Part shown: positions 17,053 through 33,374 of the stretch, piece after piece
Position numbering within the stretch: position 1 is the first letter of the stretch
Layout: every line of letters begins with the position of its first letter
Origin: Frankia sp. AgB32
Lineage (GTDB): Bacteria > Actinomycetota > Actinomycetes > Frankiales > Frankiaceae
Assembly: GCF_023243045.1 (NCBI RefSeq)
Contig: NZ_JALKFX010000040.1
Span: 9,861-54,875, forward strand
Direction of reading: 5' to 3'
DNA length: 45,015 nucleotides
The notes under the pieces: model-generated
What the model saw: the letters and a program-made list of their open reading frames with translations, nothing else
Databases searched by the model: none
What the model was told of the DNA's origin: nothing
Made by a program: the position numbers and the translations under genes

Positions 17053-18402
17053 TCAGACCGGTGACCGGCCGGCCGCGATGCCGATCAGCGCGGGGAACAT
17101 CCGCCAGACACCCGGCCGCGCGGCGGGGACCCCGGGGGAGTGCGGCGGGACCCGAACGCGCACAGCCGCCGGAAGCGAGCGCAGCTCCAGCGGCGGCGAC
17201 AGGCGCAGCGCCTCGCCGTCCACACCGACGCTGACGGGGCGGGCGGAGTCGATGTGCATCGTGGGGCTGGTCCACTGGCGGAAGCCGCGGAACCGGTCGA
17301 TGGCACCGATGGACTCGAGCGCGACGAGTGCGGGCAGGTCGCGCGCGCGATCGACGCTCAACGCCACGACGCCGAGCTGGCCGCCGTCGAGCCGTGGCCG
17401 GGTACCGAAACCACCGAGGCTGTGCACCCGGTAGGCGTTGTTGGACACGAGCAGAACGTCCGCCTTCGACCCCGCGCGACCGTCCGGGCCGGTGAAGCGA
17501 AGATCCGGCGGAGCGCGATCCGCGCCCAGCAGGTCGGGCAGCATCGCGGCCGCCGTGCCCATCTTCGCGCCGCGGTAGCTGTCGGACTGCACGATCTCCG
17601 CGTAGACGCCCAGCGAGACGTTGTTGACGAACACGCGGTCACCGAGCTGACCGAGGTCCACGCGCCGCTCGATGGCGCGGCCGAACGCGTCGAGCGCCCC
17701 CGCCACATCCTTGCGGTCGAGACCGAGGTCCAGGGCGAAGTGGTTGCGGGTACCGGCCGGGACGCAGACGAACGCCATCCCGCGCCGCCGCGCCACGTCC
17801 GCGACCAGCGCCTGCGAACCATCGCCGCCCGCCATGCCGAGCACGTCGGCGCCGCGGTCGGCGGCGGCCTCGGCGAGGGAACGCAGATCGGCGCCGTCCG
17901 TGAGGGTGACGACCGAGATTCCGCGCCGGGCCGCCTGCGCGGCGAGATGGTGGCGCTCGGCGGCGCCACCGCCGGAGCGCGGGTTCACCAGCAGGACGCC
18001 GCGCCGGGCGGCGTCCACCGGACGACCCCTCGGCCGATGCCGGCCGAACGCGCCGCGGGCCGCGGCTGCCGACGTGCCGAGCAGGCACGCGGTGACCAGC
18101 GCGGTGCTCAGGCCGACCACGCCCGCGAAGGCGATCAGGCCGCCGAGTGTGCAGGCCGCGACGACGGCCGCGCTCAGCCGCCGCAGCCCCCGTCCGACCA
18201 GCGCCGTCCAGCCCGCGACCAACGCGATCGTCACCGCGGCGATCGAGATCGGCAGGGCGACCGGCCGGTCGAGCAGCCGGGCGAACAGGACAGCGACCGC
18301 CGCGGCGAAACTCGCCAGCGCCGCGCAGGCCGCCGCCCGCCGGTAGCGGGACACCGGCGGTCCCGCGCGCCGACTCGGCCGGCGAACCATGCAGGTACGC
18401 AC
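17053..18402 (-). CDS. Diacylglycerol kinase-like lipid kinase with N-terminal membrane segments
   Basis: A 449-aa protein. Residues about 22-115 contain four hydrophobic segments. Residues 135-449 form a DAGK_cat/YegS-like kinase: LLVNPRSGGG (137-146), GGDGS at 192-196 (the ATP-binding GGDGT variant) and VPAGTRNHFALDLGL (214-228), with FVNNVSLGVYA later. Such enzymes phosphorylate diacylglycerol, sphingoid bases or undecaprenol-like lipids; the substrate is unknown here. The membrane part would place the kinase beside its lipid. An in-frame ATG at 18390 is an alternative start. It is divergent from the lipid-synthase operon that begins at 18591. Confidence 0.85.
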   Translation of the reverse strand: MRTCMVRRPSRRAGPPVSRYRRAAACAALASFAAAVAVLFARLLDRPVALPISIAAVTIALVAGWTALVGRGLRRLSAAVVAACTLGGLIAFAGVVGLSTALVTACLLGTSAAAARGAFGRHRPRGRPVDAARRGVLLVNPRSGGGAAERHHLAAQAARRGISVVTLTDGADLRSLAEAAADRGADVLGMAGGDGSQALVADVARRRGMAFVCVPAGTRNHFALDLGLDRKDVAGALDAFGRAIERRVDLGQLGDRVFVNNVSLGVYAEIVQSDSYRGAKMGTAAAMLPDLLGADRAPPDLRFTGPDGRAGSKADVLLVSNNAYRVHSLGGFGTRPRLDGGQLGVVALSVDRARDLPALVALESIGAIDRFRGFRQWTSPTMHIDSARPVSVGVDGEALRLSPPLELRSLPAAVRVRVPPHSPGVPAARPGVWRMFPALIGIAAGRSPV

Positions 18403-18590
18403 GAGCAGCCATCGCCCCCTGATTCCGCACGGGACGCCGTCCTGGTGGCGACTCAGCGCGTCCGAATACCACGGTACCCGTAAGCGCGTGTGGGGTACTT
18501 CAGCGGGGAGAGCTACGTGTCGCTGTTGGTCGACGTCGTGGAGCGACCTTGGGGATGGGTGGCGGAGGAGCGGGAACGGGGGCGATCGGC

Positions 18591-19934
18591 ATGGAGGACA
18601 GCGCGACAGGTGCGGCGGCCGCCGCCCGATCGGCGACGTCGCCGATCGGGTACGCGTCGAGTCGGGCCGGTCCGGAGACGGCGATCACCGGCGCCTCCGG
18701 TTTCCTGGGTGCCCGGCTGGCCCGCGAGCTCCTGGACCGCGGCCACCGGCTGGTCCTGCTGGCCCACGCCGGATCCGGGGACGCCCTCGCCCGGCTGGGG
18801 CGTTTCCTGGCGGCCAGCGGCGCGCCGTCATCGATGATCAACGGTCTGCGGGGGCGGGTCCGGGAGGTCGAGGTGGACATCGCCCAGCCGCTGCTCGGCC
18901 TGCCCGCGGATGCCTTCCACGAGCTGGCAGGCACCCTCGGGGCGCTGTGGCACAGCGCGGCGGACACCACCCTGGCCGGCGCGTCCGAGCAGCTGCACCA
19001 GGTGAACGTCGAGGGCACGCGGCACGTGCTGGACCTTGCCGCCGCCGCGCCGGGCCAGCCCGCCGTGTTCCACGTGAGCACCGCGTTCATCGCCGGTTCC
19101 CGTCGCGAGGAGGTGGCCTACGAGGACGACCTCGACGGCACCCAGGGCTTCGAGAACTCCTACGAGCGGTCGAAGTTCGACGGCGAGGTCCTCGTCCGGC
19201 AGTGGTCGGCGGATACCGGCCGGCCGGTCGTGGTGTTCCGGCCCAGCCTGCTGCTCACCGACGTTCCGTCCCATCCCGACCTGCCCCCGCACACGTTGGA
19301 CGCGGTCGCGCGGGCGGTGCTGACGATCGTGTCGATGGCCGCCCAGCTCGATCTGGGCGGTGGCGGAACCGGCGAGGCGGACCGGTCGACGGTGCGGGTG
19401 GTCGCCGACCCCCGCGCCCGGCTCAACGTCATGCCCGTCGAGGAGGCCGCTCGGGACATGGTGCACATCGCCGGTCACGCCCCGTCCGACGGTGTCATGA
19501 CGTATCACATCGTCGGCGACTCGGATCTCACCGTGACCCAGATCATGCTGCTCTTCGAGGAGTTCTTTCCCGCGCATCTCGTCGCCGTACCGGAACCCCC
19601 CCGAGACCAGACGGAGTTGGAGCGAATGGTCGACCTGGTACCCGGATTCGTCAGCTACCTGCTCCACCGGCACGTCTTCGACGACACCCGGGCGCGCACG
19701 GTGCTGGGCGAGCGTCAGCCGTCCCGGTCCATCGACCGGCAGTACCTGCTCGCGGCGCTCGGGGTCGGGGAGCTGGTCGACCGGGCGGTGCTGGACGGGC
19801 CGCCACCCACGCCGGCCACCGGCGGGCGGGAGGCGCTCGACCGGGCCCGGGCGGTCCGGGAGCGCCGCGACGACCAGCAGCACCGGTTCCGGGAGCCGTC
19901 CACGGCCCGTCCGCACGCGGTGGAGGCGTCCTGA
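18591..19934 (+). CDS. SDR/thioester-reductase-like NAD(P)-binding protein
   Basis: A 447-aa extended SDR of the NAD_binding_4 (thioester reductase, fatty acyl reductase) kind. The Rossmann motif TGASGFLG is at 33-40, an STAF-type active-site Ser follows (VFHVSTAFI), and the YxxxK pair is Y191/K195 in NSYERSKFDGE. Reductases of this type release acyl chains from carrier proteins as aldehydes or alcohols. The ATG at 18591 is chosen; an in-frame ATG at 18549 would add 14 Gly-rich residues. Its TGA overlaps the ATG of the PfaD-like gene (TGATG, 19932-19936), so it is the first gene of the lipid operon. The free-standing layout differs from PKS-fused reductase domains. Confidence 0.82.
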   Translation: MEDSATGAAAAARSATSPIGYASSRAGPETAITGASGFLGARLARELLDRGHRLVLLAHAGSGDALARLGRFLAASGAPSSMINGLRGRVREVEVDIAQPLLGLPADAFHELAGTLGALWHSAADTTLAGASEQLHQVNVEGTRHVLDLAAAAPGQPAVFHVSTAFIAGSRREEVAYEDDLDGTQGFENSYERSKFDGEVLVRQWSADTGRPVVVFRPSLLLTDVPSHPDLPPHTLDAVARAVLTIVSMAAQLDLGGGGTGEADRSTVRVVADPRARLNVMPVEEAARDMVHIAGHAPSDGVMTYHIVGDSDLTVTQIMLLFEEFFPAHLVAVPEPPRDQTELERMVDLVPGFVSYLLHRHVFDDTRARTVLGERQPSRSIDRQYLLAALGVGELVDRAVLDGPPPTPATGGREALDRARAVRERRDDQQHRFREPSTARPHAVEAS

Positions 19935-21697
19935 TGGCGATCTCCTCGAGCCCGGCCCGCCGGCCCCCCGGCCGCGGCGTCGGTCCTCGTCGTGGTCCCG
20001 CGCTCGCGGGCGGCACCGGCCTCGCCAGCCGGGCCCGTCGGGCCGACCGGACCACCACCGCGGGGGACACCCCGCCCACGCCGCTGTGGCGACCGGGCCG
20101 GCACCCGGCGGTGTTCGACGAACCGGGGCTGAGCGCGTGCGCCCGACAGATCCGGGAGCCTGTCCACCTGCTGGCGGTTCCCGGGCGCGGGCTGGGTATC
20201 GGCCTCGGCGGCGCGGTCGTGGCGCCGGGCGGCGTCCCGATCCCGCCCAGGGCCGACGGAGCCGGGGCTCGGGTCCTCGGCGTCCTGCCGCCGCTGTACC
20301 CGGAGTGGCTCGGCGACCGCTCGTTCGGCGCGGCGCATGGGGTTCGCTTCCCCTACATCGCCGGTGAGATGGCCACCGGGATCGCCACCACCGAACTGGT
20401 GACCGCCATGGCCCGGGCCGGCATGCTCGGCTTCTTCGGCTCCGGCGGGCTGCCTGTGGCCCGCATCGAGCAGGCCGCGGCCGCCCTCGCCCGGGACCTC
20501 GCCGGCATGCCGAACTGGGGGATGAACCTGCTGCACTCGCCGGGTGACGCGAGCCTGGAGAACGGGACCGCCGAGCTGCTGCTGCGCCACGGGGTCCCGT
20601 GTGTGTCCGCGTCGGCGTTCATGACCCTCACCCCGGCGGTGGTGCGCTGTTCCGCGGCGGGGCTGCGGCGTGGACCCGACGGCGGGATCATCCGTCGGAC
20701 CAGGGTGTTCGCGAAGATCTCCCGGCCGGAGGTCGCCCAGCTGTTCATGTCGCCGCCGCCGGCGCCGCTGCTGCGGACCCTGGTCGAGCACGGTCAGCTG
20801 ACCGCCGAGGAGGCCGAGCTCGCCGCGGGACTGCCGGTCGCCGAGGACATCACCGTCGAGGCCGACAGCGCGGGGCACACCGATGGCCGTCCGCTCACGG
20901 TGCTGCTGCCGTCAGTGCAGGCCACCCGGGACGCGGTGGCCGAGCGGTTCGGGCTGCCCGGCCGGATCCGGGTCGGCGCCGCCGGCGGCCTGGGCACCCC
21001 GCAGGGCGTCGCCGGGGCCTTCGCGCTCGGTGCCGCCTACGTGCTCACCGGTTCGGTGAACCAGGTCAGTGCCGAGTCCGGACAGTCGAGCGCGGCGAAG
21101 GAGATGCTGGCCGGCGCCGACATCGCCGACGTGGCGATGGCGCCCGCGGCGGACATGTTCGAACTCGGCGCCAAGGTCCAGGTGCTGCGCCGGGGCACGA
21201 TGTTCGCCACCCGGGCGGGCGCGCTGTACGAGGCATACCGGCTGCACGACTCGTTCGAACAGATTCCCGGCCGCCAGCGGGCGAAGCTCGAACGCGACGT
21301 GTTCGGGATGGCTCTGCCGGAGGTCTGGCGGCGTACGGCCGAGTACTGGCAGGCCCGCGACCCGGCCCAGCTGCGCCGCGCCGAGCAGAACCCGAAACAC
21401 CGGATGGCCCTGCTGTTCCGCTGGTATCTCGGTAACTCCGGACGATGGGCGCTCGCCGGCGACAGCTCCCGGCGTACCGACTACCAGATCTGGTGCGGAC
21501 CGGCGATGGGAGCGTTCAACCGCTGGGTCGCCGGCAGTTTCCTGGCCGATCCCGCGAACCGCACCGTCGTCCAGATCGCGCTGAACCTGCTGGAAGGCGC
21601 CGCGGTGGCAACCCGTGCGCAGCAGCTGCGCAGCTGTGGACTGCCGATCGCCGCGTCGCGGTTCCCTCCCCGGCGCCTCGCGCCCGCGTCCGGTTGA
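19934..21697 (+). CDS. pfaD: PfaD-type enoyl reductase (PUFA/polyketide)
   Basis: A 587-aa flavin-dependent enoyl reductase of the PfaD/PksE family. A TIM-barrel of the nitronate-monooxygenase type is visible: AMARAGMLGFFGSGGLP, GMPNWGMNLLHSPGD, GAAGGLGTPQGVAGAFALGA and then YVLTGSVNQ. The conserved C-terminal region contains PKHRMALLFRWYLGNS and YQIWCGPAMGAFNRWV. PfaD proteins act in trans on chains held by PfaA-type synthases, reducing enoyl double bonds at chosen cycles. The gene overlaps the reductase stop codon by one base and precedes the synthase gene by 166 bp in the same direction, so it is the likely ER partner of that synthase. The N-terminal 45 residues are low-complexity and probably disordered. 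Confidence 0.93.
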   Translation: MAISSSPARRPPGRGVGPRRGPALAGGTGLASRARRADRTTTAGDTPPTPLWRPGRHPAVFDEPGLSACARQIREPVHLLAVPGRGLGIGLGGAVVAPGGVPIPPRADGAGARVLGVLPPLYPEWLGDRSFGAAHGVRFPYIAGEMATGIATTELVTAMARAGMLGFFGSGGLPVARIEQAAAALARDLAGMPNWGMNLLHSPGDASLENGTAELLLRHGVPCVSASAFMTLTPAVVRCSAAGLRRGPDGGIIRRTRVFAKISRPEVAQLFMSPPPAPLLRTLVEHGQLTAEEAELAAGLPVAEDITVEADSAGHTDGRPLTVLLPSVQATRDAVAERFGLPGRIRVGAAGGLGTPQGVAGAFALGAAYVLTGSVNQVSAESGQSSAAKEMLAGADIADVAMAPAADMFELGAKVQVLRRGTMFATRAGALYEAYRLHDSFEQIPGRQRAKLERDVFGMALPEVWRRTAEYWQARDPAQLRRAEQNPKHRMALLFRWYLGNSGRWALAGDSSRRTDYQIWCGPAMGAFNRWVAGSFLADPANRTVVQIALNLLEGAAVATRAQQLRSCGLPIAASRFPPRRLAPASG

Positions 21698-21863
21698 CCC
21701 CGTCCCGGGCGATCCGCCGCGGCGGGCCCGTTTCCGGCGGATCCGTTTCCGGCTGACCCGTCCCGTAACACCTGATCCGGCCGAACCGCCGGAAACCCGC
21801 ACCAGCCGGCCCGCCCGCCTACCGCCCCGACGGCGGGCCGGTCAGGAGAGGAGCGCAGGAGAC

Positions 21864-24800
21864 ATGGCAACCAGCGACCTCACCAGGACGGCCACCGGTC
21901 CACCGGGAGCGGGTCACCAGCCGCCGATCGCCGTGGTCGGCGTCGGCGCGATCATGCCCGGTTCCGACACGGCGCCGGGGTTCTGGAACTCGATCGTGCG
22001 CGGCGAGGATCTGATCACCGACGTCCCCCGATCGCACTGGCTGCCCGAGGACTACTTCGATCCGGATCCCACCCTGCTGGACAAGACCTACGTGCGCCGA
22101 GGGTCGTTCCTGCCGGTGATCAACTTTGATCCGACCGAGTTCGGCATCCCGCCGGCCGTCATCCCGGCCACCGACACCGCGCAGCTGTTCGCCCTCCAGG
22201 TCGCCGACCAGACGCTGCGCGACGCCCTCGGCGAGCGCTACGAGGAGGCGCCCCGGGACCGGTTCGGCGTCATTCTCGGCAGCGGGAACCTCGAGCTGCT
22301 CAGCGAGATCTACATCCGGCTGGGCCGGCCGATGTGGTACCGGTCCCTGCGCGATCTCGGCTTCTCCCACCAGGATGCGGATCGCATCTGCGAATACCTG
22401 ATGAAGGACTATCCGCGCTGGCAGGAGGCGACCCTGCCCGGCGGCCTGGGGAACATCGTTGCCGGCCGGATCGCCAACCGCCTCGATCTGCACGCGGTGA
22501 ACTACACGGTGGACGCGGCCTGCGCCAGCTCGCTCGCCGCGGTCTCCGCCGCGGTCAACGAACTCGTCCTCGGCCGCGCCGACATGATCATTGCGGGTGG
22601 GGTGGACGCCCTGAACAACCCGTGCACGTTCGTCAGTTTCTGCCGGACACCCGCACTGTCCCGCAGCCAGGACTGCCGGCCCTTCGCCGCGGACGCCGAC
22701 GGCACCCTGCTCGGCGAGGGCGTGGCCATGGTCGCGCTCAAGCGGCTGGCCGACGCCCAGCGTGACCATGACCGGATCTACGCGGTGATCCGCGGCATCG
22801 GCACGTCCTCGGACGGCCAGGGCTCCGCGATCTACGCGCCGACGCCCGGCGGGCAGATCCGGGCGCTGCGCGCGGCCTACGCCGACGCCGGCTACAGCCC
22901 GCGGACCGTCGACCTGGTGGAGGCGCACGGTACCGGCACCGTCGTCGGGGACCGTACCGAGGTCACGGCGTTGACCGAGGTGTTCGGCGCGGCCGGCGGG
23001 GACGACGGCCGCTGGTGCGCGCTGGGCTCGGTGAAGTCGCAGGTCGGCCACACCAAGTCCGCGGCCGGGGCGGCCGGCCTGCTCAAGGCCGTCCTCGCGC
23101 TGCACCATCGCCTCCTGCCACCGACGATCAAGGTCGTGGAGCCGAACCCGGATCTCAACCTCGACACCAGCCCCTTCTACCTGAACACCGCCGGGCGGCC
23201 CTGGGCCGAGCCCGTCGAGCACCCGCGGCGCGGCTCGGTGTCGAGCTTCGGCTTCGGCGGCATCAACTTCCACATCGCCCTCGAGGAGGCACCCGAACCG
23301 CCCCGGTCGCCGAGCCACGCCGAACCTGCCGGGCGGGTGGCCGCTGCGGACGGGAACGCGGTGGCGGGCGGGAAGGCGGTGGCGGGCGGGAAGGCGGTGG
23401 CGGGCGGGAAGGCGGCGGACCGTCCCCGCGCGCCCGGCAGTGAGCTGCTGCTGTTCAGCGGCGACAGCGGCGAGCAGGTCCTGGCCGCGGTCCGCGCCGT
23501 CGACACCGCCCGCAGCTCAGCCAGATCCGCCCATTCCGGCCGGGTCGCCGCCCTGGCCAGAGCCGCGCAGCAGGACTACGACCCGTCCCGGCCCGCCCGG
23601 CTCGCGGTTGCCGCGGCGAGCCTCGACGAGCTCGCCGCCCGGCTCGACCAGGCGGCGAACCTCATCGCCCGCCGTCCCGACACGTCGTTCACCAACCCGG
23701 TCGGGGTGCACTACCAGGTCGACGACCCGCGGGCGCCGGGCGCCGACCGGTCGCCCGCGTTGCTGTTCCCGGGCCAGGGCAGCCAGTACGTGGGTATGGG
23801 CGCCGACGTGGCGATGCGTCATCCGGCGGCCCAGCAGGTGTGGGACCGGCTCGGCGGCCACAGGTTCGGCGCGGGGAGGGACGCACGCAGCATCCACGCG
23901 ATGGTGTTTCCCCCGCCGGCGTTCACCGCCGCCCAGCAGGCCGCCCAGCAGGCCGCGTTGACAGCGTCCGAATGGGCTCAGCCGGCGCTCGCGGTCCATT
24001 CCCTGGCCCTGCTGGCCACCCTCGACGACCTCGGCGTGCGCCCCCGCGCGGTCGCCGGGCACAGCTTCGGTGAGCTGACCGCGCTGTGTGCCGCGGGCAG
24101 CATCGCACCTGATGACCTTGTCCTGCTGGCCCGCCGCCGTGGCGAACTCGTCCGCGGCGCCGCCGACACCAGCCCCGGGCGGATGCTCGCGGTCAGCGCG
24201 GGAGCCCCGGACGTCGGTGCCGCGCTCGGCGAGGAGTCGAACGGCGCGGGCCGCGCGGTGTGGGTGACCAACCTGAACGCGCCGCGCCAGACCGTCCTGT
24301 CCGGTACCCCGGAGGGGTTGGCGGCCGCGCAGGGCCGTCTCACCGCCGCCGGCCTCACCTCCCGCTGGCTGGAGACCTCCACCGGATTCCACTGTCCGCT
24401 CGTCGCCGATGCGCGGGAACCGCTGCGTCGTTTCGTGGCCGGCATCGAGATCCGTCCGCCACGCCACGCCGTCTACGCGGGCGCCAACGGCCAGCCCTAT
24501 CCGACCGATCCGGACGCCATCCGGGACCGGATCGTCGATCAGCTCACCACACCGGTCCGCTTCATCGACCAGATCGAGCGCATGTACGCCGACGGGGTGC
24601 GGACCTTCGTCGAGGTCGGTCCTGGTGGGGCGCTGACCGGCCTGGTCGACCAGATCCTCGACGGCCGTGACCACCTCGCCGCCAGTCTGGACCGGCGCGG
24701 CCAGGACGGCGACGCGATCCTGACCTCGGCGCTCGGGCGGCTCGCCGTCCACGGTGTCCCCCTCGACCTCAGCCGGTTCTGGGCGGCGCGACCGGAGCCC

Positions 24801-27800
24801 AGGCCGCGGAAGCTGGTGATGAGCGTGCCCATCGACGGATCGAACTACGGTCGGTATTATCCGGCGCCCGAACTGCTCGACGGCCCGGCCGAGTACGAGA
24901 TGTCCGACGCGCCCTCCTCGAACGGCTATGTCTGGGCCGAACCCGCGTCCGGGAACGGCCAGCCGCACGATCCGCCAGCCGCAGGCCCCGGCAGCCAGGC
25001 CAGGAGCGGGTCGAACGGCCAGGTGACGGCGCCCGCCGGCCGGCCGGCCCCGGCGGACACCCCGCCTCCGCCGGCCGTCCCGTCCGTCTCGGTTGGACCG
25101 TCCGTCTCGGCTGGACCGGCTGGACCGGCTGGACCGGCCGAGTCCGGGATCGCGGGTGGCGCGGGCGAAGCGATGCCGCCTCCCGCAGCCGACCGGTCGG
25201 TGCCCGGGGAGTTCGTCCTGCCCCCGGCGCCCACCACCGGTGTGGCGGAGCACGAGGCGGGTGGCGGCGAGCACGCGATGATCGTCACCGCGCCGCCGGC
25301 CTCGCCGGGGGAGGTTCTGGGGGCGCACGTGGCCGCGCCCGGCGGCCGGGTGGGATGGATGTCCGCGCTCGAGGCCGCCCACCGGCAGACCACCGAGGCA
25401 CACGTCGTCTTCCAGCAGCTCCTGACCGAAGCGCATCTGGAGTTCCTGCGGATGTCCGGTGCGGTGTGTTCGGGACTGGCTGGGATGCCCCCGGAGGACA
25501 CCGGCTACCACCAGGAGCCCCTGGCGTCGCGGGACATCGCGTCCGTGGGCGGTCCGCCCGCGGCGGTGGACAGCCGCGAGCCGCGTGCCGGGACCGCCCA
25601 GCAGCCGGTGGCCCTGACCGACGACCAGCTCGGGCCTGCTCCGGTCACCGCCACCGCACCCGCCCCGGTTGCCGTCACCGCCACGGCACCTGTTCCCGTC
25701 ACCGACGCCGCCACCGCACCTGCTCCGGTCGCTGAGTCCGGGACGGACACCGCACCCGGGGCGGGCGCGGCACCGGAACCGGCCCCCGCCCTCGGCGGGG
25801 TGGACGTTGCCCAGATCGAGGACCTCCTGCTCACGGTCGTGGCGGAACGCACCGGTTACCCGCGGGAGGTGCTGACGACGGACATGGAGCTCGAAAGCGA
25901 TCTCGGTATCGACTCGCTCAAGAAGGTGGAGATCCTCTCCGCGCTGCGCCAGCAGGTGGGAGACACGGCCGTGGAGGTCAGCGAGGCCGACGGGATCGCC
26001 GAGCTGGCCGCCATGCGGACCCTCGGCGAGGTGGTCGAGCTGATCCGCCAGCGCCTGGATCCCACCGGCGACGGCGATCCCAGCGATCAGGCCGGCGGAC
26101 CCGGGACGGCCGGTGGTGCCCCCTTTCGAGCCGGCACCGACTCCGACGTCCGACCCGTCACCGACAACCCGGCCGGCGCCGCGCCCGCCCGGTCCCGGGG
26201 CGTCGGTGACGGCAACCGAACCGGCGCCAGCGAGCCGCCGCTGAGCAGGTACGTCCCTGCGCTTGCGGCCGTGGCGGCACCCGGCCTGGCCCTGCCGGGG
26301 CTGGGTGCCGGGTGCCTGGCCGTCGTCGACGGGGGCAGCGGGATCGGGCAGCCACTGGTGGACGAACTCGCGCGGCACGCAATCGCGGCCGAGGTGGCCA
26401 CGGCCGACGCCGCCATGACCGACGCCGCCACGGCCGGGGCGGTCGTCCTGCTTGCCGGCCTGGCCGAGGTCGACGCCGTCGACACCATGCTCGACCTGCA
26501 ACGCGACGGGTTCCGCTGGGCGCGTGCGGCAGCCCGGTCCGGCCCTCGCCTGTTCGTCACCGTGCAGGACACGGGGGGAGACTTCGGACTCGGTGGCCGG
26601 CAGGGCGATCGTGCCTGGCTGGGCGGCTTCACCGCGCTGGCCGCCACGGCGGCCGCGGAATGGCCCGCCGCGGCGGTGAAAGCGATCGACTGCGCACGGG
26701 CAGGTCGCGGACCTGCGCAGATCGCGGCCGCCCTTGCGACGGAGCTACGTCATGGCGGCGCGGCTGCGATCGTCGCCCTGCGCGCCGACGGAGGACGGTT
26801 CGTCCCCCGGGTGGAACCGGCGCCGCCCATCTCCGACGCCGTGGCTGCCACCGGCCCCGGGACGGCGGACACCCCGGGGAACGTCGAGGGCCCGGCACCG
26901 GCGATCGGAACGGACTCCGTGCTCGTCGTCACCGGCGGTGGGCGCGGGGTGACCGCCACGGCCGTGATCGAGCTGGCCCGCCGCTGCCGGCCGAGGCTGG
27001 TGCTGCTGGGCCGGACGCCGCTCGTGGACGAACCACCCGGTCTCGCTGCGGCCACGGACGAAGCGGGGCTCGTCCAGCTGCTCGCCGAACTGCGTGGCAC
27101 CAGCGGGGGGCCCGCACGGCTGCGCGGGCAGGCACGGGAGATCCTCGCGGTCCGCGAGGTGCGGGCGACCCTGGCCGAGCTGACGGCCCTCGGCATCCCG
27201 GTCCGGTATGAGCCGGTCGACGTGCGCGACGCCGCCGCGGTCAGGTCGGTCCTCGACGAGGTGCGGCGCGCCTGGGGACCGGTCACCGGCGTCGTCCACG
27301 GTGCGGGCGCGCTTGCCGACAAACTGATCGTGGACAAGGCCGATGACGCCTTCGCCCGGGTCTTCGACACGAAGGTGCGCGGCCTGCGCAACGTGCTCGC
27401 CGCGCTCGCCGGTGCACCACCGGCGCTGTTGTGCCTGTTCACCTCGATCGCCGGCTGGTTCGGCAACGCCGGGCAGAGCGACTACGCGATGGCCAACGCC
27501 ACGCTCGACCAGGTCGCCTCCGCCTACCAGGCCGCCCATCCGGACTGCCGGGTCCGTTCGATCGCCTGGGGTCCGTGGGCCGGTGGGATGGTCGGACCGC
27601 TGCTCGCCGAGGTCTTCGAGCAGCGGGGGATCACCCCGATTCCGCTCGGGCTCGGAGCGGCGGCGTTCGCCGACGAGGTGGCGGCCGGGCCGGCCGACCG
27701 GGACGACGCGCCGCAGTCCGCGCGGGTGCTGATAGCCGGCCCGGGGACGGATGTGTGCCGCGGGGCGGATGCGTCTGCCGGGGAGGAGCCCACGGGTGCG

Positions 27801-28700
27801 CGCCCGCTCGGGCAGCTGACCGTGCACGTCCGGTCCCAGCCGTGGCTGGCGGACCACAGCCCGGCGGGGACGGCCGTGCTGCCGCTCGCGATGGCGCTGG
27901 ACTGGCTCGCCCGCGGCGCGGAGTCCTACCTCGGCGCGCACCCCGGTCGGGACGCAACCGGGCGGGAGGACGGACTGGTGCTGTGGGACCTGCGTGTCCT
28001 GCGCAAGATCGCACTGCCCGAGCTGGCCGGGGATGGCCACCGATTCCTGGTCAGGGGCGCGGCCGCGGGGCCCACGGGCGGCGAGCCGACCGAGCTGCGC
28101 CTGCGCCTCGAAGGCGCCGATGGCGTCCCGTACTACAGCGCGCGGCTGTGCCTGGACGACGCCCGCCCGCGCACGGCCGCCGACTGGCCGACGCCGACCG
28201 GGCTGGTCGAGCGGCCCGAGGAGGCGGCGAGGTACCGGGAGCGGATCTACGGTGTGGGCGCCCTGTTCCACGGCCCGCGGTTCCGCGCGATCAGCTGGCT
28301 GCGGGGGATGGCGCCCGACGGCGCCGAAGGGACCATCGTGGGCGTGGACGCGCTGGCCTGGGGCGGCGGCGACTGGTACTTCGACGTCGCCGCGCTCGAC
28401 GGCGGCATGCAGCTCGCCGGGCTGTGGGCATGGCGGGCACTGGGCGGCGCGATACCTGTCGCGGTGCGGGAGTGCCGGATCCACCGACCCGGCCTGCTGC
28501 CCGGCCCGGCGCGGGGGGTGGTGCACGCCCGCGGGATCAACGGCGTCCATGCCAGCTGCGACGTCGCCGTCCTCGACGGCGGGATGACCGACGCCGGGGT
28601 GACCGACGCCGGGAGGAGCGTCAGCGGCGAACGGCCCAGGATCGAACTGCTCGGGGTGGAGCTGGTGCTGCGCCCGGACCGGCTGGACCGTCCGCATTGA
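21864..28700 (+). CDS. PfaA-like type I iterative synthase: KS-AT-ACP-KR-DH
   Basis: A 2278-aa synthase with an AGGAGAGGAG leader before ATG 21864. KS is about 22-475 (C220 in VDAACASSLAAV, EAHGTGT, GHTKSAAG). AT is about 633-960 (FPGQGSQYVGMG, S734 in GHSFGEL, the PUFA-synthase form). A long Pro/Ala/Gly linker precedes the single ACP (1313-1397, S1351 in LGIDSLKKVE). A KR-type structural subdomain (about 1470-1650) and a catalytic KR (1686-1912, VTGGGRGV, Y1874 in QSDYAMAN) follow. The C-terminal hotdog DH has H1998 in ADHSPAG and D2179 in ALDGGMQ. It would condense malonyl units iteratively, with reduction and dehydration in place and enoyl reduction by the PfaD protein. One ACP, instead of the tandem ACPs of PUFA synthases, is notable. 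An IS element follows the stop directly. Confidence 0.93.
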   Translation: MATSDLTRTATGPPGAGHQPPIAVVGVGAIMPGSDTAPGFWNSIVRGEDLITDVPRSHWLPEDYFDPDPTLLDKTYVRRGSFLPVINFDPTEFGIPPAVIPATDTAQLFALQVADQTLRDALGERYEEAPRDRFGVILGSGNLELLSEIYIRLGRPMWYRSLRDLGFSHQDADRICEYLMKDYPRWQEATLPGGLGNIVAGRIANRLDLHAVNYTVDAACASSLAAVSAAVNELVLGRADMIIAGGVDALNNPCTFVSFCRTPALSRSQDCRPFAADADGTLLGEGVAMVALKRLADAQRDHDRIYAVIRGIGTSSDGQGSAIYAPTPGGQIRALRAAYADAGYSPRTVDLVEAHGTGTVVGDRTEVTALTEVFGAAGGDDGRWCALGSVKSQVGHTKSAAGAAGLLKAVLALHHRLLPPTIKVVEPNPDLNLDTSPFYLNTAGRPWAEPVEHPRRGSVSSFGFGGINFHIALEEAPEPPRSPSHAEPAGRVAAADGNAVAGGKAVAGGKAVAGGKAADRPRAPGSELLLFSGDSGEQVLAAVRAVDTARSSARSAHSGRVAALARAAQQDYDPSRPARLAVAAASLDELAARLDQAANLIARRPDTSFTNPVGVHYQVDDPRAPGADRSPALLFPGQGSQYVGMGADVAMRHPAAQQVWDRLGGHRFGAGRDARSIHAMVFPPPAFTAAQQAAQQAALTASEWAQPALAVHSLALLATLDDLGVRPRAVAGHSFGELTALCAAGSIAPDDLVLLARRRGELVRGAADTSPGRMLAVSAGAPDVGAALGEESNGAGRAVWVTNLNAPRQTVLSGTPEGLAAAQGRLTAAGLTSRWLETSTGFHCPLVADAREPLRRFVAGIEIRPPRHAVYAGANGQPYPTDPDAIRDRIVDQLTTPVRFIDQIERMYADGVRTFVEVGPGGALTGLVDQILDGRDHLAASLDRRGQDGDAILTSALGRLAVHGVPLDLSRFWAARPEPRPRKLVMSVPIDGSNYGRYYPAPELLDGPAEYEMSDAPSSNGYVWAEPASGNGQPHDPPAAGPGSQARSGSNGQVTAPAGRPAPADTPPPPAVPSVSVGPSVSAGPAGPAGPAESGIAGGAGEAMPPPAADRSVPGEFVLPPAPTTGVAEHEAGGGEHAMIVTAPPASPGEVLGAHVAAPGGRVGWMSALEAAHRQTTEAHVVFQQLLTEAHLEFLRMSGAVCSGLAGMPPEDTGYHQEPLASRDIASVGGPPAAVDSREPRAGTAQQPVALTDDQLGPAPVTATAPAPVAVTATAPVPVTDAATAPAPVAESGTDTAPGAGAAPEPAPALGGVDVAQIEDLLLTVVAERTGYPREVLTTDMELESDLGIDSLKKVEILSALRQQVGDTAVEVSEADGIAELAAMRTLGEVVELIRQRLDPTGDGDPSDQAGGPGTAGGAPFRAGTDSDVRPVTDNPAGAAPARSRGVGDGNRTGASEPPLSRYVPALAAVAAPGLALPGLGAGCLAVVDGGSGIGQPLVDELARHAIAAEVATADAAMTDAATAGAVVLLAGLAEVDAVDTMLDLQRDGFRWARAAARSGPRLFVTVQDTGGDFGLGGRQGDRAWLGGFTALAATAAAEWPAAAVKAIDCARAGRGPAQIAAALATELRHGGAAAIVALRADGGRFVPRVEPAPPISDAVAATGPGTADTPGNVEGPAPAIGTDSVLVVTGGGRGVTATAVIELARRCRPRLVLLGRTPLVDEPPGLAAATDEAGLVQLLAELRGTSGGPARLRGQAREILAVREVRATLAELTALGIPVRYEPVDVRDAAAVRSVLDEVRRAWGPVTGVVHGAGALADKLIVDKADDAFARVFDTKVRGLRNVLAALAGAPPALLCLFTSIAGWFGNAGQSDYAMANATLDQVASAYQAAHPDCRVRSIAWGPWAGGMVGPLLAEVFEQRGITPIPLGLGAAAFADEVAAGPADRDDAPQSARVLIAGPGTDVCRGADASAGEEPTGARPLGQLTVHVRSQPWLADHSPAGTAVLPLAMALDWLARGAESYLGAHPGRDATGREDGLVLWDLRVLRKIALPELAGDGHRFLVRGAAAGPTGGEPTELRLRLEGADGVPYYSARLCLDDARPRTAADWPTPTGLVERPEEAARYRERIYGVGALFHGPRFRAISWLRGMAPDGAEGTIVGVDALAWGGGDWYFDVAALDGGMQLAGLWAWRALGGAIPVAVRECRIHRPGLLPGPARGVVHARGINGVHASCDVAVLDGGMTDAGVTDAGRSVSGERPRIELLGVELVLRPDRLDRPH
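23358..23411 (+). repeat. Three tandem 18-bp repeats in the KS-AT linker
   Basis: GCGGTGGCGGGCGGGAAG is repeated three times, encoding Ala-Val-Ala-Gly-Gly-Lys three times in the linker between the KS and AT domains. The length is a multiple of three, so copy number can change without a frameshift. Such repeats make linker length variable between strains. Confidence 0.9.
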
Positions 28701-28736: not shown

Positions 28737-29673
28737 CTACACACCCACCAAGGGAGGTGCGTAGTGTTGAGGTTCGCGGTTCACCGGCACCGGCAGTCCG
28801 GCGCCTCCCCGCGCAGTCACGGCCTGTCCGGCCGCGATGTTCATAGCTGCGTTCACGTCAGCGTTGGCCGTGTGTCCGCAGGCGACGCACCGGAATCGCG
28901 CTTGGCTCTCACGCGATCCGGCGGCCACATGCCCGCAGGCCGAGCAACGCTGACTCGTAAAAGCGGCCGGGATTCTCTCGACCCGGCCAGGGGCCTTCTG
29001 TTCCAACCGCTGGACGAGCAGGCCCCAGCCGGCGGCGAGGATGACCCGGTTCAGCCCGGCCTTTTGCCGTACGTTCCGGCCCGGCTCGGCGATTGTGCCT
29101 CGCGCCGACCGGGTCATGTTCGTGATCCGCAGGTCTTCGACGCGGATCACGTCGTATTGCCGGGCGAGGTCGGTGCTGGTCTTCTCGATCCAGTCCTTCC
29201 GCCGGTCGCCTTCCCGGGCTTTCACCCGAGCGATCCGAACCGTCAGCTGGGCCCGCCGGTTACTGCCCCGCTTGGCGCGGGCGAGCCGGCGTTGCAACCG
29301 GACCCAGCCGACTTTCGGGATGCGGACTTCGGACCAGCGACGGTTGATCTGCCGGACGTCCCGAGGGTTTCACCGCAACGATCCGGAACCCGGGCTTCCG
29401 GTGGGAACCCCGGAAAAAGTTCGCCATGGCAGTGGAGAAATCCCGCAGGGCCTGCTGCTGCACGATGATGCTGCCCGCTGCAAGCCAGTCGAACTCTCGG
29501 CGGGCTTCGGTCACCTGCCGGTTCTGCTCGGCATAGCCGGGCGCCGGACCGCGCCGAGGTTTCCACCAGGATCGCTGTTCCACGGCAAGGTTCCACACAT
29601 AGCGTGCGTGCCCGCAATGCTCGGCCATCATCGCCGCCTGATCGGCGGTCGGATAGAGCCGGTAGCGGGGCAT
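28737..29673 (-). pseudogene. tnpB: TnpB nuclease gene with frameshift and internal deletion
   Basis: The N-terminal part starts at 29673 (MPRYRLYPTADQAAMMAEHC) and reads in one frame to VKPSG. The frame then changes at about 29361-29370: after one extra base the text continues RDVRQINRRWSEVRIPKVGW. This runs directly into LQRRLARAKRGSNRRAQ, which in intact TnpB comes some 80-100 residues later. The first RuvC segment, with its catalytic Asp, is therefore missing. The later RuvC Glu (RVEDLRITNM), the four-Cys zinc finger (CSACGH and CVACGH) and the last RuvC Asp (NADVNAAMN) remain. The C-terminal open frame alone starts at 29297. The product should have no RNA-guided nuclease activity. Confidence 0.85.
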
Positions 29674-29861: not shown

Positions 29862-32405
29862 TCAGTCGACGACACGCAGCGTCGCCGGCACGTCCATCCG
29901 CCGGACCCGCCGCGCGCTCAGCAGCGGCGCGACCGCCACGGCGCCCACACCCAGCAGCACCGTCGTGAGCAGCGTCGACCATGACAGCACCGCCCGTACC
30001 CCGAGGTCGGGCACGGCGTCGGCGAGCAGTACCTCGACGCTCCACCGCAGCGCCCAGTAACCGGCCACCAGGCCGAGCGCCGTCCCGAGCAGGCCGATGA
30101 GCGAGCTTTCGGCGACCGCGAGGGCGAGCACCCGCCGCGGCGGCAGGCCGAACGCGAGCATGGTCGCCTGTTCGCGGCGCCGCTCGTCCAGCGTGATGCT
30201 CACCGCGTTGTAGGCGATCAGCAGCGCGAGCAGCAGCACCGTCACCTCGGCGATCCGCAGGATACCGACGAAGGTCTGCAGCAGCGAGCGGATCTCCTCG
30301 ATGGTGGCCGTGGCCGGCGCGACCGAGCCGACGCCCGGGATCGCGGCGAGCGTCCGGATCGCCGCAGCCTGGGAGTATCCCGGCGCCGGGCGGACGGTGA
30401 GCGCGTTGGTCAGGCCGGCGAGGCCGAACGAGCCGGCGTCGGCGCTGTTGAGGAACGCCACCGACCGGACCGCGAAGTTGTGGATTCCGGCTACCCGGAC
30501 AGGGGTGTCGACCGTGCGGTAGCCGGTGCCGACGCGCCGCGGATGCCGCAGCACGACGTAGTCGCCGACCCGCACGCCCAGATCGCGGGTGGCCTTCGCC
30601 GCGAGCAGGAGACCCCCGGTCGTGGTCCCCTCGCTCACCCGGGGCGACCACCCGGCGGAACGGGTGTCGAGGATGTAGGTCAGCACCTCGATCGGTGGGT
30701 GCGCTGAGGAGCCTGGCATGTCCAGGATGCGGGCGGGCAGCGCCAGCTGGGTCTCGGTCGCGGCCACGGCCGGCGAGTCGCGCACGGCCCGCACGGTCGG
30801 GGCCGTCACCGGCTGCACGCTCGGCAGGACGACCTGCAGCCGGTCGGGCATGCGGTACGTCAGCTCCGCCTCCGCGGCGTTCGTGGTGCGGGTGAACGTG
30901 TCGAGCTGGCCGGTGAACACCACCAGCGCGATCACCGCGGCGGCGATGCCGAGCGCGGTCAGCAGCGCCCGGCGCGGTGCCCGCGCGAGGTTGCGCACCG
31001 GCATCCGAGCCTGGCTCCCGCCGGGCAGCACCCGGCCCAGGATGCCGTGCCGCGGCGGCCGCCGCGTCCGCCGCCGGCGCGTGAACCGCGGCCCGCGGCC
31101 GGCGATCGCCGTCGCCCGGATCGCCTGGACCGGCTCGACCCGCAGGGCCCGCCAGACCGGCTGCACCGCCGCGACCATCGGCAGCAGCAGCCCGATCGCG
31201 GCCGCCCGGGCGAACACGCCGGTCTGGAAGCCGGTCCGCCACACGGGAAGCGGCCAGTCGCCGCGCAGCAGCGCCCCCATCGCGGCCGTGATGACCAGCC
31301 CGGTCCCGATGCCGACGAGCACACCCAGCACGCCGATCTGCAGGCCCAGCAACAGCGGGCGCAGCGCCAACAGCCGGGACGGCACCCCCAGCGCCATACC
31401 GATGCCGATCTCCCGGCGCTGCGCGTCCACGACCCTTCCGACGAGGTTGAACGCCGCGAACATCGCGCCGATCAGAACGAGGAGCGCCAGCGAGTCGAAC
31501 AACGCCTGGTTGCTGTCGATCGAGTTGTACATGATCTGGCGCGACGTGATGTCCGCGCGATCGGTGACCGTCGCGCTCACGCCGGGCAGCCGTGCGGCCA
31601 GCGCGTCGGTGAGCTGGCGCCGCAGGGCGCCGGTGTCGGCCCCCGGCCGGACCGTGAGGACCAGGTCGTTGACCGCGTCCGGTTTCCCGGCGAGAACCTG
31701 CGCGGTCGCCAGCGAGGTGTACAGCACGCCGAAACCCGAACGGGTGATCAGGCCAGGCTGCTCGCCGGGCAGCACGAAGAACTCCGGGCTCTGCCCCTGC
31801 CCCGCGTACCGCACCCGAGTTCCGCCGCTGATGCGCACCGTGCCGGTGCGTGGCAGGTGGTTCGCGGCCGCGAAGGTGCGGTCGAGGATGCCGACCGGCC
31901 GTCCGCTGTCCGCCGGTGCGAGGCCCCGGCCGGCCGCCGTGGAGATCCCGTCCACGAGCGGTCGGGACGTCAGGTCGACGCCGACCACCTCGCCCCGGGC
32001 CAGGACGTCGCCGTGGCCGGGCCGGGACGCGTCGATCTCGGTCGGGATCAGCAGGCGTTCGGACGCACCCCGCACCGCGGCCGCGTCCGGCAGCACGGCG
32101 ACGAGGGCGCGCAGCCGGCCCTGCGCGACGGTGCTGCCGGCGTCGAGGCTGACCCGCAGGTCGTGCACGTTCAGCTGGGCGAAGCTCGCGTCGTAGGACT
32201 CGTGCCGCCACCGCGACGTGCTGGTGAGCCCGGCGTACAGGCCGGTGCCCTCCCCGACGACCGCGGCGAGGGCGAGTACCAGCAGCAGGCGTCGGCGCAG
32301 GTCACGCCAGGACCAGCGCAACCACAGCCCGGCGGAGCCGGCCCGTCCGGTCTGTGCCGCGACCCGCGGGCCCCGGACCGGCACGTCAGGGTCGACCGTC
32401 CTCAC
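29862..32405 (-). CDS. FtsX-like ABC transporter permease
   Basis: An 847-aa permease with two FtsX-type halves. TM1 is near residue 35-55 (LLLVLALAAVVGEGTGLYAG), followed by a large external domain (about 60-270). TM2-4 follow (FDSLALLVLIGAMFAAFNLV and others), with a second transmembrane set after RRALLTALGIAAAVIALVVF. A second external domain (about 500-690) and three final TM segments end in LLSARRVRRMDVPATLRVVD. MacB/LolC-like transporters of this kind move lipids, lipoproteins or peptides mechanically rather than as channels. The GTG start at 32405 overlaps the TGA of the ATPase gene, so the two form one transporter. Confidence 0.9.
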   Translation of the reverse strand: MRTVDPDVPVRGPRVAAQTGRAGSAGLWLRWSWRDLRRRLLLVLALAAVVGEGTGLYAGLTSTSRWRHESYDASFAQLNVHDLRVSLDAGSTVAQGRLRALVAVLPDAAAVRGASERLLIPTEIDASRPGHGDVLARGEVVGVDLTSRPLVDGISTAAGRGLAPADSGRPVGILDRTFAAANHLPRTGTVRISGGTRVRYAGQGQSPEFFVLPGEQPGLITRSGFGVLYTSLATAQVLAGKPDAVNDLVLTVRPGADTGALRRQLTDALAARLPGVSATVTDRADITSRQIMYNSIDSNQALFDSLALLVLIGAMFAAFNLVGRVVDAQRREIGIGMALGVPSRLLALRPLLLGLQIGVLGVLVGIGTGLVITAAMGALLRGDWPLPVWRTGFQTGVFARAAAIGLLLPMVAAVQPVWRALRVEPVQAIRATAIAGRGPRFTRRRRTRRPPRHGILGRVLPGGSQARMPVRNLARAPRRALLTALGIAAAVIALVVFTGQLDTFTRTTNAAEAELTYRMPDRLQVVLPSVQPVTAPTVRAVRDSPAVAATETQLALPARILDMPGSSAHPPIEVLTYILDTRSAGWSPRVSEGTTTGGLLLAAKATRDLGVRVGDYVVLRHPRRVGTGYRTVDTPVRVAGIHNFAVRSVAFLNSADAGSFGLAGLTNALTVRPAPGYSQAAAIRTLAAIPGVGSVAPATATIEEIRSLLQTFVGILRIAEVTVLLLALLIAYNAVSITLDERRREQATMLAFGLPPRRVLALAVAESSLIGLLGTALGLVAGYWALRWSVEVLLADAVPDLGVRAVLSWSTLLTTVLLGVGAVAVAPLLSARRVRRMDVPATLRVVD

Positions 32406-33169
32406 CAGTGGAGCTCGCTGACGGCCCGCTGGCCACCCGGTGGCGGACCGTCCGCGACGATCCGTCCGCTCGACAGTTCGATCACCCGGTCGGCGATCCG
32501 GGCGATCTCCCGGTTGTGCGTCACCACCAGGACGGTGTGGCCCACCGCGGGCTGGACCCGCAGCAGACCGAGGATCGCGACGCCGGAGTGGAAGTCGAGC
32601 TCACCTGTCGGCTCGTCGGCCAGCAGGATCGGGTTTCCGGTTGCCAGCGCACGGGCGATCGCCACCCGCTGCTGCTCACCGCCGGAGAGCTGATGGGGGA
32701 AATGGTCGCTGCGTTCCGTGAGCCCGACGCCGTCCAGCACCTCCTCGGTGACCTCGGCGGCCCGGGCCCGCCCGGCCACCTCCGCGCCGAACTGCACGTT
32801 CTCCCGGGCGGTGAGCGCCGGAAAGAGGTTGAACGACTGGAAGACGAAACTGACCGTGTGCCGCCTGATCTCCCGGCGCTCCCGCGGCGACGCGCGGGTC
32901 AGGTCCGCACCGCCGAGGCGGACCGTGCCCGCGGTCGGGGTGTCCAGCGCGCCGATCAGGTTGAGCAACGTCGTCTTGCCGCATCCGGACGGCCCCAGAA
33001 TCACCACGAACGAGGAGTTCGACACGCTCAGGTTGACGTCCTCCAGCGCGCTGACACCCGTTTCGCCCGTCTCGTACCGTCTGGTGAGGCCGCTCAGCTC
33101 GATGAGTGTCCTCTGGTCGGCGCTACCGGTTCCGGGCGTCGCCGGATCCGGGGAGGCGGCCTTCGTCAT
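32402..33169 (-). CDS. ABC transporter ATP-binding protein (MacB/LolD type)
   Basis: A 255-aa ATPase with Walker A GPSGCGKTT (59-67), Q-loop Q111 (FVFQSFNLFPALT), signature LSGGEQQRVAIARAL (161-175) and Walker B ILLADEPTGELD (181-192). The EPTGELD form is typical of the LolD/MacB group that powers FtsX-like permeases. The ATG at 33169 is chosen over an upstream in-frame ATG (33271) because AGGAGGGACGC lies directly before it and the family N-terminus fits. It overlaps the permease start by four bases. The substrate is unknown. Confidence 0.92.
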   Translation of the reverse strand: MTKAASPDPATPGTGSADQRTLIELSGLTRRYETGETGVSALEDVNLSVSNSSFVVILGPSGCGKTTLLNLIGALDTPTAGTVRLGGADLTRASPRERREIRRHTVSFVFQSFNLFPALTARENVQFGAEVAGRARAAEVTEEVLDGVGLTERSDHFPHQLSGGEQQRVAIARALATGNPILLADEPTGELDFHSGVAILGLLRVQPAVGHTVLVVTHNREIARIADRVIELSSGRIVADGPPPGGQRAVSELHW

Positions 33170-33374
33170 GCGTCCCTCCTGCAGGTGTCCCGGTGCGTCG
33201 TGTCCCGGTGCGTCCGGGTCGGGTCCCGCGGTCCGTGCTCCGCGGCAGCCATGCCTCCACGGCCGGGTCACGGCGACGGCCGGTCACAGTCTCGACCCGC
33301 GCGGGCGCCGATCGGCGCACCTGACCGCGGTGACTTTCGGGGTGCCGGGCCCAGCGCCGGACGGACAGTCCTCG
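33170..33374. other. Upstream region of the ABC and FG-GAP genes
   Basis: Non-coding DNA between the divergent ABC ATPase gene and a tnpB scrap. It should hold the ABC operon promoter. I see no clear hairpin, repeat or promoter boxes. Confidence 0.35.

Follow-up and report, generated by a model that had tools for sequence, protein, structure and literature searches.

Introduction

The locus described here lies in a 45,015 bp stretch of the Frankia sp. AgB32 genome (the window, to which all positions below refer), and its closest described relatives are the pfa clusters, which encode polyketide synthases (PKSs) of the polyunsaturated fatty acid (PUFA) type. In terrestrial pfa synthases (Shulse and Allen Type L and the myxobacterial pfa1-pfa2-pfa3 clusters) the enoyl reductase PfaD is encoded ahead of PfaA, a protein of domain order KS-AT-ACP-KR-PS-DH (PMC8436480, PMC3098273). 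Pfa-type clusters with a single ACP also occur, Type M pfa clusters have been recorded in Frankia strains ACN14a, CcI3 and EAN1pec, and the heterocyst glycolipid (hgl) cluster, like the locus below, is described as having no FabA-type dehydratase/isomerase (PMC3098273). The zeamine secondary lipid synthase is also PUFA-like with a thioester reductase (TR) domain, and it has aminotransferase and PKS-NRPS (nonribosomal peptide synthetase) partners (PMC13291983) that the present locus does not share.

The window carries a TR-PfaD-PfaA operon at 18591-28700 of the forward strand, followed by a gene pair for an ABC transporter. As in Type L, PfaD precedes PfaA; the Frankia module differs from the Type L and myxobacterial clusters in having no PfaBC/Pfa3 (KS-CLF-AT-DH) gene and in having the TR and the ABC pair, the TR gene preceding that of PfaD both in Frankia and in 12 Streptomycetaceae loci. 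The five genes define a predicted lipid synthesis and export module in Frankia, a variant of the secondary lipid synthases; new here are the missing PfaBC gene beside the synthase and the ABC pair as a module member, and the open-licence PMC literature, as far as its accessible parts go, yielded no description of the operon with its exporter. We judge it somewhat better than an even bet that this mobile module is an accessory pathway whose product, a saturated or hydroxylated long-chain aldehyde or alcohol, is exported.

The synthase operon

The sequence-only reading had placed a reductase, a PfaD and a PUFA-type synthase at 18591-28700, and reading frames together with profile scans found all three genes to be real at those positions. 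The first (18591-19934, ATG at 18591) encodes a standalone TR-like extended short-chain dehydrogenase/reductase that matches PF07993 with 135 bits; the solved structure closest to it is the MxaA terminal reductase (E = 1.7e-17), other solved chains near it are terminal reductases of a type I PKS, an NRPS and carboxylic acid reductases, and its GxxGxxG and YxxxK motifs are invariant across 17 aligned sequences. It is predicted to release the chain as an aldehyde or alcohol. Its stop is overlapped by the ATG at 19934 of the second gene (19934-21697), whose product is the trans-acting PfaD-type enoyl reductase that had been proposed (TIGR02814, 629.8 bits with a cut-off of 449.25) and has solved PfaD chains as its closest structures (6lkc at E = 8.4e-143).

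The third gene (21864-28700), whose ATG at 21864 is preceded by an AGGAG stretch, encodes an iterative PfaA-type PKS of 2278 aa that scores 1088.1 bits with TIGR02813 (cut-off 1010.1) and has the KS-AT-ACP-KR-DH order and the GHSFGEL motif that had been read from the letters. Pfam places four domains above cut-off as follows: KS at approximately 21924-23294 (PF00109/PF02801; Cys, His and His motifs), AT at 23763-24662 (PF00698; GHSFGEL and FH motifs), PP-binding ACP at 25824-26003 (PF00550; LGIDSL) and KR at 26922-27581 (PF08659; S-Y-N motif). The C-terminal PKS-type DH (approximately 27801-28697) scores 24.5 bits with PF21089 (PKS_DH_N), slightly below the cut-off of 27, and has the motifs HxxxGxxxxP and DxxxQ; its catalytic His and Asp are conserved in all six aligned Frankia PKSs, the Gly of the His motif being Asp in three of them. 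Motifs of these kinds mark the catalytic sites of KS, AT, ACP, KR and DH domains. There are no tandem ACPs, only one ACP motif and one PP-binding stretch, and the Streptomyces relatives likewise show one ACP motif. Since PfaA and PfaD both exceed their curated cut-offs, the pair belongs among the PfaA/PfaD secondary lipid synthases.

Is the operon more than a chance arrangement? We consider that it is, because PfaD orthologs (at least 73% identity) are found in 11 of the 35 genomes of the family, the window genome counted, and because the ratio of nonsynonymous to synonymous substitution rates (dN/dS) lies between 0.13 and 0.67, below one in all 40 pairwise comparisons (TR and PfaD in six genomes, PKS in five). 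All three genes are under purifying selection. TR is present in nine of the 11 carriers, the contigs of the other two (G009 and G010) beginning at PfaD, and a search at order level returned the same 35 genomes.

The ABC transporter pair and the limits of the module

Two genes on the reverse strand encode an ABC permease with two FtsX domains (29862-32405; two stretches of PF02687) and an ABC ATPase of the MacB/LolD/DevA class (32402-33271; PF00005), the latter scoring 208.8 bits with the MacB model (cut-off 966) and 198.4 bits with the DevA model TIGR02982 (cut-off 295.8). Permease orthologs of 65-77% identity are confined to the 11 carriers of the PfaD ortholog, every one of which has one; in the other 24 genomes the matches listed are at most 32% identical. 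In eight of the 11 carriers the permease shares a contig with the PKS and lies downstream, 0 to 4.4 kb past the PKS stop, and in G009, G010 and G019 permease and PfaD are on separate contigs. The ATPase is matched at 71-81% next to the module in other Frankia loci, and no permease match at E 1e-8 was found across the 80 named loci described below.

This joint inheritance is the best evidence that the synthase and the ABC pair act together, and on it the pair is assigned to the functional module. The coordinates originally given for the three genes hold, but the functional unit reaches 33271 rather than ending at 28700. No membrane-fusion protein was found among the scanned proteins of the module. 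Between the PKS and the permease is a broken TnpB gene (28737-29673, reverse strand), outside the pathway, whose C-terminal half (28737-29297) matches positions 239-387 of the 389 of model NF040570 and whose N-terminal half, identified by eye in a different frame, begins at 29673. The same interval of G011 (L118) holds a 72% match over 193 aa to this broken gene.

The left boundary of the module falls within 18413-18590, left-flank synteny to four further Frankia genomes breaking off at 18411-18413. An upstream lipid kinase gene (17053-18402) was considered as a member and rejected, since it is unmatched in the other Frankia module loci and belongs to a flank common to genomes that have the module elsewhere or have no module.

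The missing PfaBC partner and the proposed pathway

No PfaBC (KS-CLF-AT-FabA) gene lies beside the synthase in the window or in the other Frankia loci, the contigs of G009, G010 and G019 ending too early for certainty on this point. A FabA-type DH is present in 63 of the 66 non-Frankia loci (of 79) that reach 13 kb or more beyond the start of KS on the downstream side, the other three being L017, L060 and L065. In pfa biochemistry the FabA-type dehydratase/isomerase underlies the polyunsaturated product, and because it is absent here a saturated or hydroxylated chain is to be expected rather than a polyunsaturated one. The dedicated phosphopantetheinyl transferase PfaE was also not found in a search confined to the scanned module proteins.

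The pathway that we favor would proceed as follows: the PfaA-type synthase would load malonyl units and elongate the chain on its one ACP; KR, the C-terminal PKS-type DH and the trans-acting PfaD would reduce it to a saturated or partly hydroxylated long chain; the standalone TR would free this chain as an aldehyde or primary alcohol; and the FtsX/MacB-type ABC pair, transcribed convergently, would extract or export the product. We infer the chain chemistry, the reductive release, the export and the sufficiency of the five genes. Several points weigh against this scheme. The releasing reductase suggested by the sequence-only reading is indeed closest to terminal thioester reductases, but its 128.6 bits with the NCBIfam model TIGR01746 do not reach the cut-off of 213.35. 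The ABC pair, being convergent with the TR-PfaD-PKS operon, lies outside it, and its cargo is putative. The module encodes neither a chain-length factor (CLF) nor a second KS, and we know of no PfaA-type synthase that functions without one. Finally, in three of the nine genomes in which the PKS can be judged (G005, G019 and G020; loci L116, L114/L021 and L122) it is present as two overlapping frames with a break between AT and KR, which may be sequencing error or decay, or a real split.

Such frame breaks, together with the absence of PfaBC and the broken TnpB gene within the module, are what a decaying remnant of a Streptomyces-type PUFA operon might show after loss of PfaBC. We regard decay as quite unlikely, however: the catalytic motifs are intact in the six aligned Frankia PKSs (apart from the Gly to Asp change in the DH of three), none of the 40 dN/dS values reaches one, and two genera have kept the module together with the ABC pair that matches it. 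An intact, five-gene pathway is the reading we retain, and it suggests that a PUFA-type synthase can be retained without its chain-length-factor partner.

Could the synthase instead be incomplete, and depend for its missing dehydratase or other parts on a second pfa-like cluster? Such a cluster with its own PfaD lies on C240 of the window genome (L134), and with its orthologs it is more widespread in the family than the module. The FabA domains of the window genome are encoded on C240 and C133 only, and all 11 carriers have a second, C240-class PfaD as judged by identity (in G020 as two pieces). On the other hand, the C240 cluster owns KS, ACP, KR, DH, FabA and PfaD, 13 of the 24 genomes that lack the module have second-class PfaD matches, and Pfam recognised no KS-CLF in the 1234 aa protein of C240; we find this dependence unlikely, and continue with the self-sufficient module as the preferred reading. 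Second-class PfaD matches (at least 45% identity) are found in 21 of the 25 nifH-positive genomes and three of the ten others, in G006, G020 and G022 as pieces only. As the source of a symbiosis-linked lipid, the C240-type cluster may be a better candidate than the module.

The C240-type cluster is probably also the published Type M. Membership of the module itself in Type M was considered and set aside: G003, apparently F. casuarinae CcI3, has no module ortholog, and the C240-type cluster fits better (EAN1pec was not identified among the 35 genomes). Two further pfa-like loci were noticed in the window genome. C208 (L136:9898-16449) encodes a PKS of unusual order with an NMO-type domain fused before KS-AT-ACP, and C249 (L135) is a third PfaD-bearing locus with a divergent PKS frame of 2021 aa, common to G008.

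Relationship to terrestrial pfa and heterocyst glycolipid synthases

The named homologs were taken from the best 80 of 393 confirmed stretches (79 non-Frankia loci, distant clades included), and among these the closest named relative of the PKS is that of Parafrankia soli (73%). A KS-AT tree was built by quick search from 109 rows, some of them only half filled; it has long branches, but those that separate the groups are starred. Its 11 Frankia rows stand together with a support of 100 in the Shimodaira-Hasegawa-like approximate likelihood ratio test (SH-aLRT), inside an actinobacterial group of 33 that is nested among terrestrial pfa synthases (a group of 76 rows). The HglE encoded on the Sphaerospermopsis hgl island (L172_3734) falls in a separate six-row group (SH-aLRT 99) with a second cyanobacterial synthase, a Chloroflexi synthase and marine PfaA, and a third group takes in the other Frankia pfa-like genes (those of C240, C249 and related loci). 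This grouping is also seen in the PfaD tree of 106 rows (starred from SH-aLRT 95), where 12 Streptomycetaceae rows adjoin Frankia with SH-aLRT 91, below that threshold; 11 of the 12 have TR, L009 being cut before it, and the TR-bearing L035 falls outside. The KS-AT tree leaves the sister relation of Streptomycetaceae and Frankia open.

The Streptomycetaceae TR-PfaD-PfaA-PfaBC operons (12 loci, e.g. L012 and L015) begin with the same three genes in the same order, their TRs being 44-51% identical to that of the window, but unlike the Frankia loci all 12 keep the FabA part. A wax-ester-synthase-like gene is present in nine of these 12 loci, which fits alcohol release in that group; the two that were checked score 115 and 165 bits with TIGR02946 (cut-off 310), both have HHxxxD and one exceeds the PF03007 cut-off.

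The sequence-only reading had proposed a heterocyst-glycolipid-type synthase, to be checked by KS phylogeny, and on the KS-AT tree descent from HglE is rejected. What survives is a likeness of parts. The hgl island (L172, of which five proteins were scanned with profiles and PfaD was found by BLAST) shares with the module KS-AT-ACP, KR-DH, PfaD and TR activities and, by prediction, reductive release, and the analogy to the hgl machinery takes in the lack of a FabA-type DH and a transporter of the FtsX class; its HglB-like TR is 31.6% identical to that of the window over 250 aa (E = 7e-18). It differs in having an HglC-type KS protein (KS-CLF-AT), for which the Frankia module has no counterpart, an ACP-TR fusion and an HlyD protein nearby. 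Compared with the DevBCA/HgdBCA exporter, the module has an FtsX permease and an ATPase of the same class that stays below the DevA cut-off (above). No glycosyltransferase (HglT) was found in a search confined to the scanned module proteins. As judged by these comparisons, the likeness to the heterocyst glycolipid machinery is one of analogy, not of descent or close kinship. (L065, the first cyanobacterial relative considered as hgl, turned out to hold a different pfa-like cluster, and the comparison was made with that genome's hgl island.)

Distribution in the family and the vesicle envelope

The window genome, a 6.68 Mb draft, has nifH over cut-off and is of Frankia type, so the nitrogen-fixing Frankia host that had been supposed is the host. 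All 11 carriers are nifH-positive, and the module is present in 11 of the 25 nifH-positive genomes and in none of the ten without nifH (one-sided Fisher p = 0.011, not corrected for kinship). It is, however, absent from 14 of the 25 nifH-positive genomes, G003 (the apparent CcI3) among them. The module is best read as an accessory trait that certain lineages of nitrogen-fixing Frankia carry and not as a universal vesicle component, and the general role in the vesicle envelope that had been suggested from the sequence does not stand.

A more specific proposal sees the product as a heterocyst-glycolipid-like long-chain alcohol, which would be deposited in layers in the vesicle envelope during nitrogen fixation. 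It would accord with the restriction to nifH-positive genomes, with an activity set equal to that of the hgl island, and with the molbindin gene mopB, which in F. alni ACN14a (G001, matched through published gene coordinates) adjoins the module upstream and is reported to be 64-fold up in nodules (PMC8951365). This two-domain molbindin (L120:7669-8097; FRAAL1673 by order) was assigned through gene order and profile, and it lies directly upstream of TR in four Frankia-genus loci (G001, G004, G005 and G011) but does not adjoin the operon of the window or those of the four Parafrankia-type loci; a regulatory link through mopB, which flanks the module in the four Frankia-genus loci only, was not adopted. 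Further evidence speaks against the proposal. The envelope is described as hopanoid, and CcI3, apparently one of the 14 nifH-positive genomes without the module, has normal, hopanoid-enveloped vesicles (PMC12501873). In the nodule proteome, most secondary-metabolite proteins were either underabundant or undetected, the exceptions being FRAAL5096, FRAAL4072 and a bacteriocin. The PKS genes mentioned there are different ones, and the main text of that paper does not name FRAAL1674-1679, its three FRAAL167x occurrences being 1670 and 1673 (PMC8951365). A required vesicle-envelope role is unlikely, given the 14 nifH-positive genomes that do without the module, and we hold a heterocyst-glycolipid-like envelope layer of this kind to be improbable.

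Equally improbable in our estimation is an independently assembled hgl-like system, in which a stripped-down PUFA-type synthase with reductive release would be coupled to a dedicated ABC exporter and passed between nitrogen-fixing lineages; in carriers it would coat vesicles or hyphae with a long-chain alcohol or glycolipid, supplementing the hopanoid barrier. Should the preferred product, an exported long-chain alcohol, be correct, carrier and non-carrier strains would allow a test of a non-hopanoid lipid in the oxygen barrier.

The published distribution of this PfaD appears wider. FRAAL1675, the ACN14a PfaD, appears in Table 1 of PMC10252897 among the genes that, at 50% identity, clusters 1-3 conserve and cluster 4 lacks. 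Because second-class PfaDs are mostly 50-57% identical to that of the window, the entry in that table probably mixes both classes, and the widespread PfaD is the paralog and not that of the module. The two are told apart here, and a phyloprofile at 50% identity would conflate the module with the broader Frankia pfa-like cluster.

Indications of movement between Frankia lineages

In a nifKD tree of 20 genomes the partner of the window genome is G006, in which no module was found (with less certainty, this genome being a fragmented draft), whereas in the KS-AT and PfaD trees the window module pairs with those of the Parafrankia-type G017 and G019; presence of the module on the nifKD tree requires four state changes. 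Its chromosomal position also varies. The ACN14a module (1.79-1.81 Mb) sits between mopB and a right flank, and these two flanks are 0.64 and 0.87 kb apart in G008 and G002, respectively, so by flank order these genomes carry the empty site of the ACN14a module. The left flank of the window maps to 5.87 Mb in ACN14a; no clean empty site was found for the position of the window module, its right flank being unmatched in the four regions compared. Because the gene trees and the chromosomal positions differ in this way, they indicate that the module has moved between Frankia lineages.

A last observation concerns the left part of the window, where a gene at 3071-6835 of the reverse strand was recognised by eye as encoding a STAND-type NTPase of 1254 aa with many WD40 repeats and a DUF4062-like N-terminus, possibly a defence protein.

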